Of a DNA stretch of 20,699 nt, positions 4,750-15,615 are shown in pieces (the stretch's first letter is position 1; each line of letters opens with the position of its first letter). The notes under the pieces are model-generated. The model was not told where the DNA came from. It worked only from the letters and a program-made list of their open reading frames with translations, and searched no databases. The DNA is from a virus. The translations under genes and the position numbers were made by a program. Location: positions 1-20,699 of IMG/VR virus record IMGVR_UViG_3300029448_000556; one strand, given 5' to 3'.

Positions 4750-5250
4750 TTATTCATCCTCTTTGAGGGATTCAAGAAAGTCAAACATTTTATTCTGAAT
4801 GGAGGATGCATCAGAACGTAGGTTATCAACAAGACCTTCAAGCTCACGCATCTTTTCACGGTAGTCTTCAGCTTTCTTATTAGCTTCCCACATTGCCTTA
4901 GCGTGTAGCTGTGACACATCATCGGGTGTCTTGTCCTTTGACAAGTTACGGTTCTGAATCTTGCGTGGATACCCATAGTCATCACGCCATTTGTATAGTG
5001 TGGCTTGACTGATTTTGAAAGCCTCACAGGTCTGCCACCATGTATGGTGTGTGTAGTACTGGCAAGCACAGTGGATCAAGTCCAAGCTGTGGTTTTTGTA
5101 AGATGGTTTCTTACGTTGACCAGTAACCTTGTTGTACCAATTACACACAGTACCTACTGACACATTGTACTTCTGTGTGGTGGCTGATAAGGTATTATTC
5201 TTGTAAAACTCTACCACTTCATGTTTTAAATCTAAAGGATAAGAGGGCAT
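4750..5250 (-). CDS. tandem helix-turn-helix DNA-binding protein with coiled-coil tail
   Basis: I chose the ATG at 5250 (166 aa) because AAAGGAACAAACAATG gives it a ribosome site; an in-frame ATG at 5310 has none and falls in a hairpin. Residues about 8-40 (LKHEVVEFYKNN...TQKYNVSVGTVCNWYNK) and 55-92 (ACQYYTHHTWWQTCEAFKISQATLYKWR) are two helix-turn-helix units like those in IS3-type OrfA or psq-type proteins. Residues about 112-163 form a charged coiled coil. No DDE catalytic domain follows, so it is not a full transposase. It could be a transcription regulator, a replication factor or a domesticated OrfA. It is a possible binder of the TACTTWAAGTA palindromes, but nothing here proves that. 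Confidence 0.7.
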   Translation of the reverse strand: MPSYPLDLKHEVVEFYKNNTLSATTQKYNVSVGTVCNWYNKVTGQRKKPSYKNHSLDLIHCACQYYTHHTWWQTCEAFKISQATLYKWRDDYGYPRKIQNRNLSKDKTPDDVSQLHAKAMWEANKKAEDYREKMRELEGLVDNLRSDASSIQNKMFDFLESLKEDE

Positions 5251-5282
5251 TGTTTGTTCCTTTCTAAGAACATTTCTCATAA

Positions 5283-5328
5283 GGTACTTTATCAGTACCA
5301 TGAAGTGCATATCTCCGAACTATGCACT
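5283..5328 (-). other. two hairpins in the leader of the tandem-HTH gene
   Basis: Two perfect inverted repeats sit side by side between the 29-aa gene and the HTH gene: AGTGCATA (5304-5311) with TATGCACT (5321-5328), loop 9; and GGTACT (5283-5288) with AGTACC (5294-5299), loop 5. There is no U-run after either, so they are not intrinsic terminators. They may protect mRNA ends, act as a processing site, or serve as protein-binding sites. Confidence 0.5.
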
Positions 5329-5429: not shown

Positions 5430-5596
5430 TATGTTACCTTTGCTTGATGCCATACAATTACACCAGAACCGTATAATTGTTTTTGAAGGTTGTGTACCTC
5501 ATCCCTAGTCATAAGACCTAGATACACTTTAGGGCCAGTCACCCCACACTTAAAGCCCCTCACCAAGTCAGGGTTTTTGGCTTGTTCACGTGTCAT
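5429..5596 (-). CDS. 55-aa hypothetical protein
   Basis: The start at 5596 overlaps the stop of the GcrA-like gene (TGATG), with AAAGGA just upstream as a ribosome site, and its own stop overlaps the next start (TAATG). The protein (MTREQAKNPDLVRGFKC...) is soluble with mixed charge and one cysteine (C17). No motif is recognisable. It is kept because both junctions are exact and no frame break occurs. Confidence 0.6.
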   Translation of the reverse strand: MTREQAKNPDLVRGFKCGVTGPKVYLGLMTRDEVHNLQKQLYGSGVIVWHQAKVT

Positions 5597-5991
5597 CACA
5601 TTATCCTTTCGTATACTAGTAGTGCCTTGGCTGTTTCTGAGTACATACGTCTTTCTTCTCCTAAGATAGTAGACTTAAGGGCTTTGTGGGGTAACTCATG
5701 ACCCATACCACTAATTTTGTAGTAAGTGTTTGTCTTAGTGTTTGTCACAAGAAAGACCTTATAGGTCTCAGTTACTTCACGTGGAGACACACCTACTTCG
5801 TTTGAAGTGTATCTCCTTTGATTACTGCCATCTTTTGGTTTAGTGTGAGCAGTACTACCGTTTCTGATACGGCGTTCCTTGCTGTAGACCGTATTCGCAG
5901 TTGTACCTAACACAAGGGCAGTCTCTTGTGCAGTTAAGCCACTCTTACGCAGCTTAACCATTTGTTCCATTTTCTGGTCATCCCAGATCAT
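5596..5991 (-). CDS. GcrA-like helix-turn-helix protein
   Basis: This 131-aa protein begins MIWDDQKMEQMVKLRKSGLT and continues AQETALVLGTTANTVYSKERRI. That layout (W-x-D/E start, helix, GLTA, then a helix-turn-helix ending in a basic helix) resembles the N-terminus of GcrA, the alphaproteobacterial cell-cycle regulator that works with sigma70 at methylated GANTC promoters. A basic linker (43-60) follows, then a C-terminal half with beta-strand character that does not look like GcrA. It overlaps its neighbours by ATGA (5988-5991) and TGATG (5596). It may redirect host transcription. Family similarity is moderate; a generic sigma-like or resolvase-like HTH is the alternative. Confidence 0.6.
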   Translation of the reverse strand: MIWDDQKMEQMVKLRKSGLTAQETALVLGTTANTVYSKERRIRNGSTAHTKPKDGSNQRRYTSNEVGVSPREVTETYKVFLVTNTKTNTYYKISGMGHELPHKALKSTILGEERRMYSETAKALLVYERIM

Positions 5992-6191: not shown

Positions 6192-6319
6192 TATAGTTCC
6201 TCCATTTTGTATTTACTTAGAATGTACTGAGCAATCAACTCAGCAGCAAAGGTAGACACACCGCCCATCTGTGTTAGGGCAGTGAGTAGGTCAGCGTGTA
6301 TACGCTGTTGGTTATTCAT
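6191..6319 (-). CDS. 42-aa hypothetical protein
   Basis: The start at 6319 lies 8 bases inside the end of the 48-aa gene, and the stop overlaps the next start (TAATG). The sequence (MNNQQRIHADLLTALTQMGG...) is a helical, amphipathic peptide ending KYKMEEL. The last codons also carry the GGAGG ribosome site for the following gene. Function unknown. Confidence 0.5.
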   Translation of the reverse strand: MNNQQRIHADLLTALTQMGGVSTFAAELIAQYILSKYKMEEL

Positions 6320-6458
6320 ACGTCACCTCAATCCCTTTGCGTTGCATTGCATGACGCAGATCATCCACGTCACGCTTTGGCATGGTACAAAGCAAAGTGC
6401 CATTGACATACACCTTGACTTGCATCATTCTTACCCTCATTTCTAGGTCTGATTCCAT
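6312..6458 (-). CDS. 48-aa hypothetical protein, first gene after the terminator
   Basis: The ATG at 6458 has a near-perfect Shine-Dalgarno (AAAGGAGG, 6 bases upstream), the strongest in the left arm. The protein begins MESDLEMRVRMMQVKVYVNG and then has two short strands and a helix (KRDVDDLRHAMQRKGIEVTY), a compact beta-beta-alpha-beta look. It lies directly behind the intrinsic terminator at 6474-6520, so it depends on read-through or on a promoter within or near that hairpin. I do not recognise the family. Confidence 0.65.
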   Translation of the reverse strand: MESDLEMRVRMMQVKVYVNGTLLCTMPKRDVDDLRHAMQRKGIEVTYE

Positions 6459-6473
6459 CTACTACCTCCTTTA

Positions 6474-6520
6474 TAAATAAAAAGCCCCACATTCAACACG
6501 TAACCAACGTGGTGTGGGGA
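6474..6520 (-). terminator. intrinsic terminator, leftward
   Basis: On the minus strand the stem CCCCACA (6519-6513) pairs with TGTGGGG (6491-6485). An inner stem CACGT/ACGTG (6511-6507 with 6501-6497) lies inside it, and CTTTTTATTT follows (6484-6475). It would stop leftward transcription coming from the 6928-7419 gene or from the structured region, just before the run of small genes, and could be a control point for antitermination. Confidence 0.8.
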
Positions 6521-6521
6521 C

Positions 6522-6587
6522 TAACCGTCTCGTGGTTTCTACGGTAAGATCACAAGTAGTGAGACCTTGCTCTTACTGCTGCGGTTA
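6522..6587 (-). other. nested stem structure before the terminator
   Basis: Three nested inverted repeats are visible: TAACCG (6522-6527) with CGGTTA (6582-6587), GTAAGA (6544-6549) with TCTTAC (6571-6576), and TCAC (6550-6553) with GTGA (6559-6562). A transcript on either strand could fold. It lies between the tRNA-like element and the terminator, so it may be part of one structured leftward RNA. Confidence 0.4.
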
Positions 6588-6604
6588 CGGGGGGGAACAA
6601 ATGC

Positions 6605-6649
6605 AAAAAACCCCCACCCACTCACAGCTTGGGTATTATTCTGTGCGGG
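6605..6649 (-). terminator. candidate intrinsic terminator after the tRNA-like element
   Basis: On the minus strand CCCGCACAG (6649-6641) can pair imperfectly with CTGTGAGTGGG (6627-6617). GGGGG and TTTTTT (6615-6605) follow. The same G-run can instead pair with the C-run at 6595-6589, so two alternative folds compete. The stem is interrupted and confidence is modest. Confidence 0.4.
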
Positions 6650-6708
6650 TAGGATTTGCACCTACAAAACTTTGGTGACACTGTAAGAGTTGTCTCACAG
6701 ATCACACA
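6642..6708 (-). ncRNA. tRNA-like element with aberrant T-loop (not a canonical tRNA)
   Basis: Read on the minus strand, 6665-6649 form a perfect T-arm (GTAGG-TGCAAAT-CCTAC). The following CCGCACA (6648-6642) pairs with TGTGTGA (6708-6702) at 6 of 7 positions including one G-T, like an acceptor stem. The T-loop reads TGC where tRNAs have TTC. The remaining 36 bases do not make normal D and anticodon arms: a strong hairpin CTGTGAGA/TCTTACAG (6700-6693 and 6688-6681) takes that space, no GG is in the D-loop position and no CCA is encoded. It may be a decayed tRNA, a tRNA mimic or chance. Confidence 0.25.
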
Positions 6709-6801
6709 CCCACCCATGCTAAATGTGGGCGCACAGCACTCTCATGTATATAGTTGGCAATCCTTGGGGGTTCACTGACGGTTCACCCCTATGCCTAGTC
6801 A

Positions 6802-6829
6802 TTGAAACCTCAACCGTTGAGGCTGTATT
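6802..6829 (+). promoter_or_regulatory. candidate promoter with palindromic operator in spacer
   Basis: TTGAAA (6802-6807) is followed after 16 bases by TGTATT (6824-6829). The spacer is almost entirely a perfect 15-bp palindrome, CCTCAACCGTTGAGG (6808-6822, 7-bp arms around one base). A start near 6836 would give an RNA of about 85 bases ending at the terminator 6889-6922. The -10 match is only 4 of 6. Confidence 0.35.
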
Positions 6830-6888
6830 CAAAAGGCTTGAACACAGAAAGCGCCCCATGCAGGACGCTATCAGTAGTCAAGAAGTCA

Positions 6889-6922
6889 CACCCCATGCTG
6901 ATACATGGGGTGCTTAGTTTTT
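6889..6922 (+). terminator. intrinsic terminator, rightward
   Basis: A perfect 9-bp stem, CACCCCATG (6889-6897) with CATGGGGTG (6904-6912) and a 6-base loop, is followed by CTTAGTTTTT (6913-6922). The U-run is on the plus strand, opposite to every gene nearby. On the minus strand the same hairpin falls just after the stop of the 6928-7419 gene but lacks a U-run. A second CCCCATG (6854-6860) could compete for the right arm. Confidence 0.75.
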
Positions 6923-6927
6923 GTGGA

Positions 6928-7419
6928 TCATGCAACAATAGCCTTGAGTGCCTTGATCTTGTCAGACGGAACAACATCTTTATCTGTCAGTCCATCATCC
7001 CTACGCTTCTCAGCTTTCTTGATAAGCGCAGCAATCATTGCATCAAGGTCCATTGGCTTATAATCAGGCTCAGGCTTGAACTCCCAAAAAGGAGTTTGAA
7101 TTGCAGCCTTAGCATCCTCAAAACTGATCTTGGTACGTGCCTTGTGGTATGCAAAGCACTTGTCGTCTGTATTCCAAACGAACGTAGCATAAGCCTCTAC
7201 CCACGCTTTGAAAGCATTGGCACGACCCATTGCAGGAATTGCGACCAGTAAAGCGTTCATCTGCTTTACAGCCTTAGACACATCGCTAGTGTCATGCCAA
7301 CGCCGGATAATTGCACACCCACAAGTATGAATATCATCCTGCATTTTAACACCACGCTTTGCTATTGAAGCAATACCAGCATCAATTTGATTATCAGTTT
7401 TCACGTATTTGTTAGCCAT
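6928..7419 (-). CDS. 163-aa hypothetical protein, rightmost gene of the left arm
   Basis: I chose the ATG at 7419 (MANKYVKTDNQIDAGIASIA...) because GGAGG lies 6 bases upstream; the in-frame ATG at 7455 has no ribosome site. The protein is soluble and mostly helical, with a basic N-terminal third (residues about 20-65), an aromatic middle (WVEAYATFVWN) and a charged C-terminal helix (MIAALIKKAEKRRDD). No family is recognised. Being first in the leftward operon next to the control region suggests very early expression, the usual place for host-takeover or replication-accessory proteins; that is inference. Confidence 0.7.
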   Translation of the reverse strand: MANKYVKTDNQIDAGIASIAKRGVKMQDDIHTCGCAIIRRWHDTSDVSKAVKQMNALLVAIPAMGRANAFKAWVEAYATFVWNTDDKCFAYHKARTKISFEDAKAAIQTPFWEFKPEPDYKPMDLDAMIAALIKKAEKRRDDGLTDKDVVPSDKIKALKAIVA

Positions 7420-8111
7420 AGGAACCTCCATGATGTAGCCAAACACCATGCACACAGGACGTATGCACAGTGCAAGCTACACCAACACTATTACACCCCA
7501 CGTTGGTTGGCAGGATAGAATAGCGTTAGGTTTACTTACCATGCGGTTTCTGCATCTCAGCATAGTCCACCGCAAATATATAACTCAAGAGCAATGGCAA
7601 TTACTCACATTGACAAGCACAAACTAAGCACTATCAAATAGCACACAAGTATATTGTGCAAACGCAATGAGATTGCCATAACTCACATTATCAACCGTGC
7701 ACCCTAGCAAGCTAGGACTTACGCCACTGTCTTATTGGGCAGCACTACACCACCACCGATTGACGACACAAAAAGTGCCATAATGTTAAGCCACTATAAA
7801 GAACAAGTGTTATACATGTAGTCAGCTAGTCCCGTAGCACTCCCCTAGTCCCCCAAGGATAGGATGCAAACGGTAGGCCGATACAAGAAGATTCCGAAAA
7901 ACCTTGAAACCATATAGACACATAATCAAAAGATAATAAACATATTTAAAGATAGTGAATAAAAACAACAGGTTACAGGCTTGTTTAGAATAGTTCTAAG
8001 TATTCAAAAAACGAATCAGGCCTTTTGTGTAGGTGATACATACTTTTGATTCACTGGAGATTATTCATAACAGGAATAAATTATTCATGTATAAGAGTTG
8101 TTGTATAGGAC

Positions 8112-8166
8112 ATAATGTATAAGAGATAATGTATAAGAGATAATGTATAAGACATAATGTATAGAC
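8112..8166 (+). repeat. 14-bp tandem repeat
   Basis: The unit ATAATGTATAAGAG is repeated at 8112-8125, 8126-8139 and 8140-8153 (last base C), with a 13-base fourth copy at 8154-8166. It is AT-rich and could serve as an unwinding element or a spaced binding array. Confidence 0.85.
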
Positions 8167-8413
8167 ATAATAAATAGGGCAGCATGATTGACATAATGGG
8201 GTGGGGTATATGTGCAGACATAATGTATTAGGTATAGTGTAAAGAGCATGACTTCACCCCAACTCACAACCCCTTGAAAACACAAGGAAAAACCCTGTTC
8301 GTGTATACTTAAGAATAGTACATTGTATATAAAACATAATCTTTTCAGTAGGTTGGCATACTAAAGTATATACATAATGTCAAAAGCCGGTGTCATACCT
8401 ATACTAAAGCATA

Positions 8414-8473
8414 GGGGGGCATGGGCCACGCGGGGGGTGTACGTATACGTATACACTCAATGACAGCGGGGGG
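8414..8473 (+). other. G-runs around a 12-bp palindrome
   Basis: Runs of G at 8414-8419, 8423-8425, 8432-8437 and 8468-8473 stand out in AT-rich surroundings. The perfect palindrome TACGTATACGTA (8440-8451) sits between the last two. The four G-runs could form a G-quadruplex on the plus strand with a long last loop. Confidence 0.5.
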
Positions 8474-8517
8474 TCAAATACACTTGGTAACTACCTTAAC
8501 AAATACCCCATATTTAC

Positions 8518-8575
8518 TTTGTGATCACATAATCCCCCTCCATACATAATCCTATACCTTTTGTGATCACATAAT
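8518..8575 (+). repeat. pair of 16-bp direct repeats with GTGATCAC palindrome
   Basis: TTTGTGATCACATAAT occurs exactly at 8518-8533 and 8560-8575, 42 bp apart, that is about four helical turns. Each holds the 8-bp palindrome GTGATCAC followed by ACATAAT, so each may be a composite site for two proteins or one protein at higher affinity. Confidence 0.75.
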
Positions 8576-8775
8576 GTTAATCATAATCCAGCCATCTTAA
8601 GGTGTTCGGTAGGTAGACCCCCATGAATATACGACATGCCTACTTAGAGAGCCACTCACAGCCTCTCAGAGGGTATTCTACCCAAAGATAATACCCGATC
8701 CTCGCCGTTAAGAACTCTTTAAGTGTCCTATCTCCACCTTATCAATAATAAAAGTAAAAAATCTTAACTTTTCTC

Positions 8776-8803
8776 TTGACAAATACTTAAAGTATGGTAT
8801 AAT
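8776..8803 (+). promoter_or_regulatory. strong sigma70-type promoter for the right arm
   Basis: Both hexamers are perfect: TTGACA (8776-8781), 16 bases, TATAAT (8798-8803). The 13-bp palindrome ATACTTAAAGTAT (8783-8795) fills the spacer, so a bound regulator would directly block polymerase. Transcription would begin near 8810 and run into the lysis and packaging genes. Confidence 0.8.
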
Positions 8804-8908
8804 AAGTATACTTAAAGTAACTTAAAGCTTACTTTAAGTAAAATTACTACCTTTATAATTAATAGTAGTAATAGATACTTAAGGTACACTTAAAGTATAC
8901 TTTAAGTA
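8784..8908. promoter_or_regulatory. array of seven TACTTWAAGTA operator-like palindromes
   Basis: Sites are at 8784-8794, 8809-8819, 8819-8829 (degenerate), 8830-8840, 8876-8886 (one mismatch), 8887-8897 (one mismatch) and 8898-8908. Within each group the spacing is 10-11 bp, one helical turn, so bound proteins would line up on one face. The dyad ATTACTAC/GTAGTAAT (8843-8872) separates the two groups. The array spans the promoter spacer, the predicted start and the leader. Confidence 0.75.
8830..8873. repeat. 44-bp direct repeat, copy 2 (copy 1 at 1985-2028)
   Basis: This copy has 42 of 44 bases identical to the one before int. It includes TATAAT at 8854-8859 on the plus strand, which could act as a second -10 box, although no good -35 is present at the right distance. 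Confidence 0.85.
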
Positions 8909-8943
8909 CCCAAGAATTTTCTTAGATTCTTTGTCGTTTCTTC

Positions 8944-8971
8944 TTGACAGGAGAAATTTTTTAGGTATAAC
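8944..8971 (+). promoter_or_regulatory. second sigma70-type promoter, abutting the first right-arm gene
   Basis: TTGACA (8944-8949), 16 bases, TATAAC (8966-8971), the same architecture as the promoter at 8776. The ATG of the 83-aa gene is only 5 bases past the -10, so the predicted start falls at or just inside the start codon. Confidence 0.6.
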
Positions 8972-8976
8972 TACCC

Positions 8977-9228
8977 ATGTCTAAAACTAAAACTTATTCT
9001 AGTGATAATGTACTAGAAGAATTTTACTTAGCATTAGCTGAAGAAGACGAAGGGAAGATGCATAGAGTGCATATCCCAAGATCAGACGTCTTCTATGTAC
9101 GAGAAGCAATATTTCAAGATACAGGCGTCAAGTATACTCTAGATCATGTTGAAAGAGCCATGTACCTAGAGGGTCATCTTGAGGCCAAAGACGTATTTCA
9201 ACCACGAACAAAAAGGGATTGGGAGTAA
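8977..9228 (+). CDS. 83-aa hypothetical protein, first gene of the right arm
   Basis: The acidic N-terminal half (SSDNVLEEFYLALAEEDEGK) is followed by a mixed helical region with HIPRSDVFYVREAI and a C-terminal DWE. It could be a small regulator or DNA-mimic, but no family is recognised. It has no good ribosome site at the normal distance: AGGAGA lies about 24 bases upstream and only TTAGG is nearer. With the promoter at 8944-8971 it might be read from a leaderless transcript. Its stop overlaps the next start (TAATG at 9226-9230). Confidence 0.65.
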   Translation: MSKTKTYSSDNVLEEFYLALAEEDEGKMHRVHIPRSDVFYVREAIFQDTGVKYTLDHVERAMYLEGHLEAKDVFQPRTKRDWE

Positions 9229-9437
9229 TGCCAGAGATTATTATGGAACGTATACTTAAGTGGCAGATTATGCCACGTATTATGATGTTTGCAGTAACAG
9301 TATTAACTTATCAAGCAGTTCATTGGTTTATGACACTACCTGATCCATCAATTCAACAGTCAGGCTTAGTGTCTATCTGTATGGGAGCCTTAACAGGATG
9401 CTTTGCTGTATGGTTAGGAAACGAGAAGCATAAATGA
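9228..9437 (+). CDS. 69-aa two-helix membrane protein, possible holin/antiholin
   Basis: I chose ATG 9228 (MPEIIMERILKWQ...) rather than the frame start at 9219, because it is coupled to the previous stop and has GGGAG upstream. Two hydrophobic segments, about 17-36 and 46-63, flank a short polar turn, and the tail is charged (GNEKHK). Size, topology and position just before a three-helix holin and an endolysin suggest a holin, antiholin or other lysis-timing protein. The family is not recognised. It ends in an ATGA overlap with the holin gene. Confidence 0.65.
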   Translation: MPEIIMERILKWQIMPRIMMFAVTVLTYQAVHWFMTLPDPSIQQSGLVSICMGALTGCFAVWLGNEKHK

Positions 9438-13792: not shown

Positions 13793-14216
13793 TAAAACTT
13801 GGAAATTACCTAAACCAGAACTGGTTAATGATGAGTACGAATGGCTTTCTGTCGTTAGAGTAGGTAGGATTGTACCTTTTGGTTATAGACAAGACCCTGA
13901 TGATGGTGATATACTTCTGCCAATCCCAGAAGAATTAGAGGCTCTAGAAGAAGCTAAGAAGTATTTAAAACAATACAGTTATAGAGATGTAGCTAATTGG
14001 TTGAGTGAAAAGTCAGGTAGATATATCTCTCATGTGGGTCTAATGAAAAGAGTTAAACTTGAACGACAACGTAAAGCAGAGGCTTCAACGCAACGCTATT
14101 ACGCTGAACGCTACAAAGAAGCGGCGGCAAAAGCGGAAACCCTTGAAAGAAACCGTATCGGAGCCAGAGAGTACAATTACTCCCGTAGCCCTGAAGCCAC
14201 AGCCGATAGAGGTTGA
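13782..14216 (+). CDS. HTH protein partly overlapping TerL, possible packaging factor
   Basis: This 144-aa protein has an N-terminal strand-rich part (EWLSVVRVGRIVPFGYRQDP, ILLPIPEELEALEEAKKYL), then a helix-turn-helix (YSYRDVANWLSEKSGRYISH, VGLMKRVKLERQRK), then a long Lys/Glu helix. In marine phages I recall such a protein just before TerL. It starts 11 bp inside terS and its last 158 bp overlap the terL frame in the +1 frame, an unusually long overlap for this genome. It may aid DNA recognition in packaging. Whether a +1 frameshift fuses it to TerL is considered in the findings. Confidence 0.7.
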   Translation: MKINKTWKLPKPELVNDEYEWLSVVRVGRIVPFGYRQDPDDGDILLPIPEELEALEEAKKYLKQYSYRDVANWLSEKSGRYISHVGLMKRVKLERQRKAEASTQRYYAERYKEAAAKAETLERNRIGAREYNYSRSPEATADRG

Positions 14217-15615
14217 AAAAGCTCAAAAGATAATCTTTCAGCCAAATCCCGGCCCTCAGACAGATTTTCTTTCAGCATCAGAACAGGAGGTACTATACGG
14301 TGGAGCGGCTGGTGGTGGTAAGTCTTTTGCTATGTTGGCCGATCCTGTTAGGTATTTTAATAATCCTTTATCTTCTATGCTACTTGTACGAAGAAGCACA
14401 GAAGAACTCAGGGAACTTATCTCAGTATCCAAACAACTCTATCCCAAAGCAATCCCCGGCATTAAGTTTATGGAAAGAGATAAAACGTGGGTAGCTCCAA
14501 GCGGTGCTACTCTTTGGCTTTCATACTTAGACAGAGATGACGATGTACAAAGATATCAAGGACAAGCTTTTAATTGGATTGGTTTTGACGAACTTACACA
14601 ATGGCCTAGCCCTTATCCTTGGAACTATATGAGATCAAGGTTACGTACTACTAAAAATAGTGGGCTTAATCTTTATCAAAGAGCTACTACTAACCCCGGC
14701 GGCGCTGGTCATCAATGGGTTAAAAAAACTTTTGTAGACCCAGCCCCACATAATACCAGCTTTAATGCTACTGATCCTGAAACAGGAGAACGCATTGCTT
14801 GGCCTAAAGGTCACTCAAAAGAGGGTCAACCACTGTTTAAACGTAGGTTTATTCCTGCTACTTTGTTTGATAATCCTTACCTAGCTGATGATGGTTTATA
14901 TGAAGCTAATCTACTATCACTGCCTGAGCATCAACGTAAGCAACTACTAGAAGGTAACTGGGATGTAAATGAAGGTGCTGCTTTCCCTGAGTGGAACAGA
15001 CAGATACACGTAATAGAACCTTTTGAAATACCCAGAAGTTGGGTAAAGTTTAGGGCGTGTGATTATGGATATGGTTCTTACTCAGGAGTTGTTTGGTTTG
15101 CAGTATCTCCTGATGAACAACTCATAGTTTACCGTGAGATGTATTGCTCAAAGGTTATAGCTACTGATCTAGCTGATATGATACTAGATGCAGAGGACGG
15201 AGAGAAGATACGTTATGGTGTGCTTGACTCATCTCTTTGGCATAAACGTGGGGATACTGGCCCAAGTCTAGCTGAACAAATGATTATGAGAGGTTGCAGA
15301 TGGAGACCTGCTGACAGGTCCAGAGGTTCAAGGGTAGCAGGTAAGAACGAGATACACAGACGATTACAGGTAGATGAGTTTACTGAGGAACCACGGTTAG
15401 TATTCTTTAATACCTGCATCAGTACTATATCACAAATGCCAGCCCTACCTTTAGATAAAAACAATCCTGAAGATGTAGATACACACTCAGAAGACCACCT
15501 ATACGATGCAATTAGGTATGGGGTTATGACAAGACCACGAAGTAGTTTATTTGATTTTGACCCCGCAACACAAAAATCAGGGTTTCAAGTAAGTGACCCA
15601 ACGTTTGGTTATTAA
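14059..15615 (+). CDS. terL: terminase large subunit (packaging ATPase-nuclease)
   Basis: This 518-aa protein pumps DNA into the prohead and cuts the concatemer. Walker A is G81-S89 (GGAAGGGKS). Walker B is 174-178 (IGFDE), with E178 as the catalytic Glu. The coupling motif is TTNPGG (210-214). The RNase H-like nuclease domain starts near 330, with acidic residues D335 (RACDYG), D390 (VLDSS) and D479/D483 (EDHLYDAIRYG). The true start is uncertain: ATG 14059 makes an N-terminus of about 55 residues that is basic, looks non-conserved and lies in the overlap with the previous gene, while the recognisable family sequence starts near residue 56. A later non-ATG start or a frameshift product is possible. 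Confidence 0.93.
   Translation: MNDNVKQRLQRNAITLNATKKRRQKRKPLKETVSEPESTITPVALKPQPIEVEKAQKIIFQPNPGPQTDFLSASEQEVLYGGAAGGGKSFAMLADPVRYFNNPLSSMLLVRRSTEELRELISVSKQLYPKAIPGIKFMERDKTWVAPSGATLWLSYLDRDDDVQRYQGQAFNWIGFDELTQWPSPYPWNYMRSRLRTTKNSGLNLYQRATTNPGGAGHQWVKKTFVDPAPHNTSFNATDPETGERIAWPKGHSKEGQPLFKRRFIPATLFDNPYLADDGLYEANLLSLPEHQRKQLLEGNWDVNEGAAFPEWNRQIHVIEPFEIPRSWVKFRACDYGYGSYSGVVWFAVSPDEQLIVYREMYCSKVIATDLADMILDAEDGEKIRYGVLDSSLWHKRGDTGPSLAEQMIMRGCRWRPADRSRGSRVAGKNEIHRRLQVDEFTEEPRLVFFNTCISTISQMPALPLDKNNPEDVDTHSEDHLYDAIRYGVMTRPRSSLFDFDPATQKSGFQVSDPTFGY

Follow-up and report, generated by a model that had tools for sequence, protein, structure and literature searches.

An ACATAAT array between the diverging gene arms of an HMO-2011-type phage: a candidate clade-specific operator array

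The gap between the divergent gene arms of an HMO-2011-type phage carries eleven ACATAAT words in one orientation (7920..8575, + strand), which in our judgement have a slightly better than even chance of being a clade-specific array of directional sites for a putative DNA-binding regulator of the divergent control region. This reading is favoured because the word is limited to one clade and because the words of other clades include LexA boxes at a predicted leftward promoter. In the model, drawn from sequence comparison, a protein, either phage-coded or host-derived and presumably a transcription regulator, would occupy several ACATAAT sites to the left and right of a conserved core and, once bound, would control transcription, most likely that of the leftward (replication/integrase) arm, while the rightward arm would run on its own strong promoters and operators. 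If true, a single control region would unite a core that does not vary, two promoters for the rightward arm and operator arrays that can be exchanged, SOS boxes among them, and the lysis/lysogeny control of HMO-2011-type marine phages would become testable, including an input from DNA damage. PMC9038755 describes such phages as a dominant group with a broad oceanic distribution; the control region and the switching of arms are not described in the passages matched in PMC9038755, PMC8528129 and PMC6918029. A literature search linking HMO-2011 or roseophages with iterons, a replication origin, an SOS box, LexA or operators found nothing on point.

The DNA studied is a 20,699-bp IMG/VR virus record, analysed at its whole length and referred to here as the window. 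Its terminase (14059-15615) is 66-76% identical to those of CRP-13, CRP-9, CRP-2, other Roseobacter phages and Puniceispirillum phage HMO-2011, and the window is therefore assigned to an HMO-2011-type phage, whose host, judged from its relatives, would be a marine alphaproteobacterium. The leftward replication/integrase arm encodes thyX, a tyrosine integrase (882-1970), an M28-type peptidase and HTH proteins (4750-5310 and 5596-5991), and in complete relatives primase, helicase and polymerase sit further out in this arm. Its first gene, phrog_1448 (6928..7419, - strand), starts at ATG 7419 with GGAGG before the start, and the operon leader (7420..7880, - strand) contains blocks conserved in distant relatives. 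Two of these blocks, GCTGCCCAATAAGA and GGTGTAGCTTG, are kept even in the distant locus L173, and Rfam gives no match to the leader. The rightward lysis/packaging arm opens with an 83-aa gene (8977..9228, + strand) that is 72-90% identical in 22 diverse relatives and whose predicted structure has a mean pLDDT of 62; by position in relatives, the portal gene would come after the terminase. The ~1.5-kb gap separating the arms (7420-8976) gave zero matches in a nucleotide search of its control region against a phage collection, and a search of GTDB genomes for prophage copies returned one hit, in a Blastopirellula MAG into which a phage contig was probably misbinned. Separately, a stretch of ~740 bp between leftward genes (6192-6927) has as its sole frame a short leftward one of 55 aa (6810-6977) and carries a single GTTCN7GTTC at 6770.

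The eleven copies begin at 7920, 8110, 8152, 8165, 8191, 8218, 8334, 8372, 8527, 8544 and 8569, with none on the - strand of the intergenic region and just four further copies, on both strands, in the rest of the window. Shuffling 7456-8976 2000 times gave a mean of 0.5 copies and a maximum of 5, and in 500 shuffles no 7-mer whatsoever was counted more than 6 times. The same-strand enrichment beyond chance asserted in an earlier sequence-only reading of this DNA is thus borne out, as is its description of the region as gene-free, the sole ORF of at least 50 aa in 7628-8976 being a 66-aa TTG frame on the - strand built from the repeat. The extended form ACATAATGTAT, said there to be frequent, is found in 3 of the 11 copies, so that "often" was an overstatement. 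Gaps between copies range from 13 to 190 bp and are not helically phased (p about 0.7).

Conservation of the word was followed in 80 loci of relatives, fetched via the first rightward gene. ACATAAT is kept, in varying numbers, by close relatives (L108 and, within L090-L098, the loci that extend far enough) and is missing from most of the other loci. Seven relatives were aligned to the window for positional comparison, L090 being omitted as nearly identical to it. The copies at 8218, 8334 and 8569 recur unchanged in 6/7, 6/7 and 7/7 relatives while their flanks drift, with identities of site versus flank of 0.95 vs 0.78, 0.98 vs 0.72 and 1.00 vs 0.70, respectively. The copy at 8110 is exact in three of the seven and that at 8152 in four, and those at 8165 and 8191 are exact in at most two, the latter reading ACCTAAT in most others. 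Across relatives the word is confined to one region cluster (9/53 regions, 1/14 clusters). Comparison with related phages, proposed in the sequence-only reading as a check, therefore came out in two parts: three copies are positionally kept within their own clade, but the word occurs in only one of 14 clusters, with different words elsewhere. In the 54.8-kb relative G002, the control region is at the contig ends; of the 15 exact words, 7 are found there, no more than ~405 bp from an end, and the other 8 are scattered; as the contig ends overlap, the seven represent five distinct places, one of them in the opposite orientation. The two ends (L189 1-337 and the end of L191) hold control-region versions that differ slightly, which would fit a genome that is circular or permuted and whose assembly mixed several strains.

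In other clades the same zone carries the words GGATAGG, TATACTT and AGAACAA, several of them helically phased, with TATACTTTAG, GAATATG and GAGAACAAA likewise listed there, and GGATAGG often sits within imperfect CTATCC-GGATAG palindromes. In several regions and other clades no single strand-biased word is outstanding, and the best strand-biased word beat all 25 shuffles in some clades only. The words GAGAACAAA and AGAACAA resolve into GAAC-N7-GAAC, and passages of PMC3091678 give GTTCN7GTTC/GAACN7GAAC as LexA sites of Alphaproteobacteria. Direct GAAC/GTTC pairs have a spacer of 7 in 17/66 regions, versus 0-4 regions for each other spacer from 3 to 15. Spacer-7 pairs occur in 15/53 regions and 5/14 clusters, against a shuffle mean of 0.7 and maximum of 2 regions over 20 rounds. 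In long records, the pairs fall inside the control region in 5/5 cases for G013, 4/4 for G010, 6/6 for G012, 2/2 for CRP-9 and 2/4 for G011, and a backwards control pattern gave 0-3 hits per long record. In the CRP-9 record the LexA-type boxes cluster at 55612-55655, in the control region.

In two clades, a leftward promoter is predicted where the GAAC-N7-GAAC words lie. Five loci (L153, L160, L161, L163 and L166) have a leftward TATAAT, with a poor -35, that is overlapped or flanked by two LexA-type boxes, and in L165 a box lies at the predicted start of a better predicted leftward promoter, TTGGTA-N18-TATAAT; these six predicted leftward promoters look SOS-controlled. In L105, L137, L144, L155 and CRP-9, no leftward promoter is predicted to overlap the boxes. 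The LexA-type examples show that repeats of this sort can serve as transcription operators in this zone. The analogy between ACATAAT and alphaproteobacterial LexA operators extends to short directional half-sites, direct repeats in a promoter region and the same zone in sister clades; however, the word here is ACATAAT, and since GAAC-N7-GAAC and GTTC-N7-GTTC are found 0 times in the window's control region and 0 times in G002 of the same clade, the analogy with the LexA boxes of the zone is one of position only. The boxes in other HMO-2011-type phages point in their own right to possible SOS control in marine phages. A related arrangement is the P1 promoter of phage GIL01, where, according to PMC4551915, a set of SOS boxes is bound by host LexA; as here, a phage control region holds several sites for one regulator, but GIL01 is an unrelated phage and its regulator is shown to be host LexA, whereas the regulator here is putative.

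The rightward promoters P1 (TTGACA-N16-TATAAT, 8776..8803, + strand) and P2 (TTGACA-N16-TATAAC, 8944..8971, + strand) are predicted, unchanged, in 8/8 aligned sequences each, and P2 ends 5 nt ahead of ATG 8977. TATAAC precedes the ATG in 80/80 loci and ends 3-7 nt before it in 69 of them, suggesting that the first rightward gene is translated from a leaderless mRNA. Five ACTT(A/T)AAGT nonamers (8785, 8810, 8831, 8888 and 8899; palindromes spanning 8783..8908) lie over and just downstream of P1, occur in 48/68 regions and are likely operators of P1. The ACATAAT copies are located 200-860 bp upstream of P1, toward the leftward operon. Promoters were scored in the window, aligned relatives and LexA-type regions with approximate -35/-10 weights; on this scale no convincing leftward sigma-70-like promoter is seen among the ACATAAT copies, the best having a mean of 6.9 vs 13.4 for P1 and 9.9 for P2. 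This counts against the operator-array reading, as do the missing helical phasing, the clades in which no strand-biased word is outstanding, the failure to tie a candidate regulator to ACATAAT, and the poor retention of eight copies, four of which are in 0/7 relatives and four in just 1 to 4 of the seven.

The array surrounds a ~80-bp non-coding core (8415..8495, + strand) of the form GGGGGCATGGGCCA(GC-rich)CGTATACGTATACACTCAATGACAGCGGGGGGT...TTGGTAACTAC, which iterated profile searches recovered in 95 of 174 sequences, 68 of the 95 being distinct with their flanks. Among the 80 loci it is present in all 65 whose sequence extends 471 bases or more beyond the start of the first rightward gene on its upstream side and in 0 of the 15 shorter ones, beginning 376-637 bases ahead of that gene. 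The firmest parts are GGGCCA, a CGTATA-like stretch and GACAG, and the G-rich or C-rich flanks switch between clades. The core is also found in CRP-2, CRP-9 and CRP-13, and weakly in HMO-2011 (E 0.002); the control regions of these four phages resemble that of the window in having divergent arms and the core, but differ in their repeat words. RNAalifold on the 68 distinct sequences found no common structure, so the core probably works as DNA; if any part of the region has a universal role, such as that of an origin, the core is the strongest candidate. Two TGTGATCACA palindromes (8520-8529 and 8562-8571) lie to its right, each running into an ACATAAT; such palindromes occur in 29/68 regions, often as a pair 30 bp apart immediately right of the core.

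The sequence-only reading had taken the repeats for an iteron origin, at which a phage initiator would bind same-strand ACATAAT beside AT-rich DNA and load the phage helicase; we regard this reading, with the core included, as unlikely. Its pattern, the location where the arms diverge and the notion of a repeated directional protein-binding site stood up, but nothing specific to replication was found. Multiple repeats in the same orientation, AT-rich surroundings (32-41% GC in 500-base windows over 7751-9250), the central position, the retention of the core in 65/65 relatives reaching it and a clade-specific word, as expected of co-evolving initiators, all fit an origin. Against it, tandem copies are spaced 13-14 bp and unphased rather than regularly spaced at ~20-22 bp or phased, and the words of the zone in two other clades are LexA-type transcription operators. 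In line with the lack of an initiator stated in the sequence-only reading, no replication protein was found among the 12 window proteins scanned (Pfam and/or PHROGs), although these do include the HTH proteins and the window is only part of the genome; a DnaA box is absent from the window's region and present in 16/68 regions. With neither initiator nor DnaA boxes found, it is the pattern that speaks for an origin. Iteron origins of lambda-type phages and plasmids likewise have same-strand repeats beside AT-rich DNA, but there the units measure ~17-22 bp and work with a known initiator, which has no counterpart among the scanned proteins.

GC skew, another check proposed there, gave a cumulative minimum at this region in 7/7 complete relatives, as an origin would, but not a maximum at the antipode. 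In these seven, the maximum lies at a convergent gene junction 34.1-39.6 kb from the edge of the region, with the antipode at 26.5-28.1 kb, and the sign of the late-arm skew is unchanged past the antipode in 7/7. The skew thus reports gene orientation, not an origin, and we rule it out as origin evidence because it follows gene orientation and transcription. A regulator array and an origin could nevertheless be one and the same. In a combined scheme, which we consider somewhat less probable than a plain origin, the core and the clade-specific arrays would act, in one of the dominant marine phage groups, as a joint replication origin and transcription switch whose word has been replaced repeatedly, sometimes by a host SOS (LexA) operator.

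It is similarly improbable that the array is mostly a neutral minisatellite, produced by slippage of a 14-bp AT-rich unit and made up of idle copies. The 14-bp tandem repeat (ATGTATAAGAGATA/GACATAATGTATAA, 6.1 copies, 8087..8171, + strand) reported in the sequence-only reading is real, but the array passes through it rather than lying next to it: the repeat contains the ACATAAT copies at 8110, 8152 and 8165, and two more units, at 8124 and 8138, read AGATAATGTAT. Its copy number and unit sequence shift together between close relatives, the tandem part expanding, contracting and homogenising, and the copies at 7920, 8372, 8527 and 8544 are found in 0/7 relatives, as idle copies might be. Slippage, however, does not explain copies spread across 650 bp, nor the retention of the isolated 8218, 8334 and 8569 despite the drift of their flanks. 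Because these three copies are kept while the tandem part expands and contracts, we consider the array to be part minisatellite and part held sites, and under the operator-array reading the tandem part would be a local expansion of one ACATAAT site.

Both attP arm-type sites and pac sites can use directional repeats, and the phage encodes a tyrosine integrase, yet it is very unlikely that the copies are arm-type integrase sites or a small-terminase (pac) packaging site. Neither a tRNA gene nor any T-arm-like sequence exceeding chance expectation lies in the window, the integrase is ~6 kb distant, and the core is also present in CRP-9 and CRP-13, which are annotated without integrase. An integrase was present in 15 of 20 records searched, several of the five without it being fragments. 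In passages of PMC9038755, PMC8528129 and PMC6918029, CRP-3 integrates at tRNA-Met and subgroups IV-X are without identifiable lysogeny genes. Separately, the core was rejected as the place of physical genome ends reflected in contig ends, as only L135 and L067 of the 95 loci start inside or beside it, and a dif site was rejected, CATAATGTATATTATG being absent from the 68 regions.

Tandem sigma-70 -10 elements firing rightward are the least credible reading: CATAAT is similar to TATAAT, and in L091, L092 and L094 the copy matching 8569 has TGGACA 17 bp upstream, but they are ruled out for the window, where the -35 scores ahead of the 11 copies run from -3.2 to 1.4 and do not rise above background (median -0.6, 90th percentile 2.2). 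Structured RNA was also rejected, with 0 Rfam hits and repeat and core strands that fold no better than shuffles. The segment from the core to P1 (8620-8745, + strand) is well conserved, and its RNA fold beats 199 of 200 shuffles (z -2.4).
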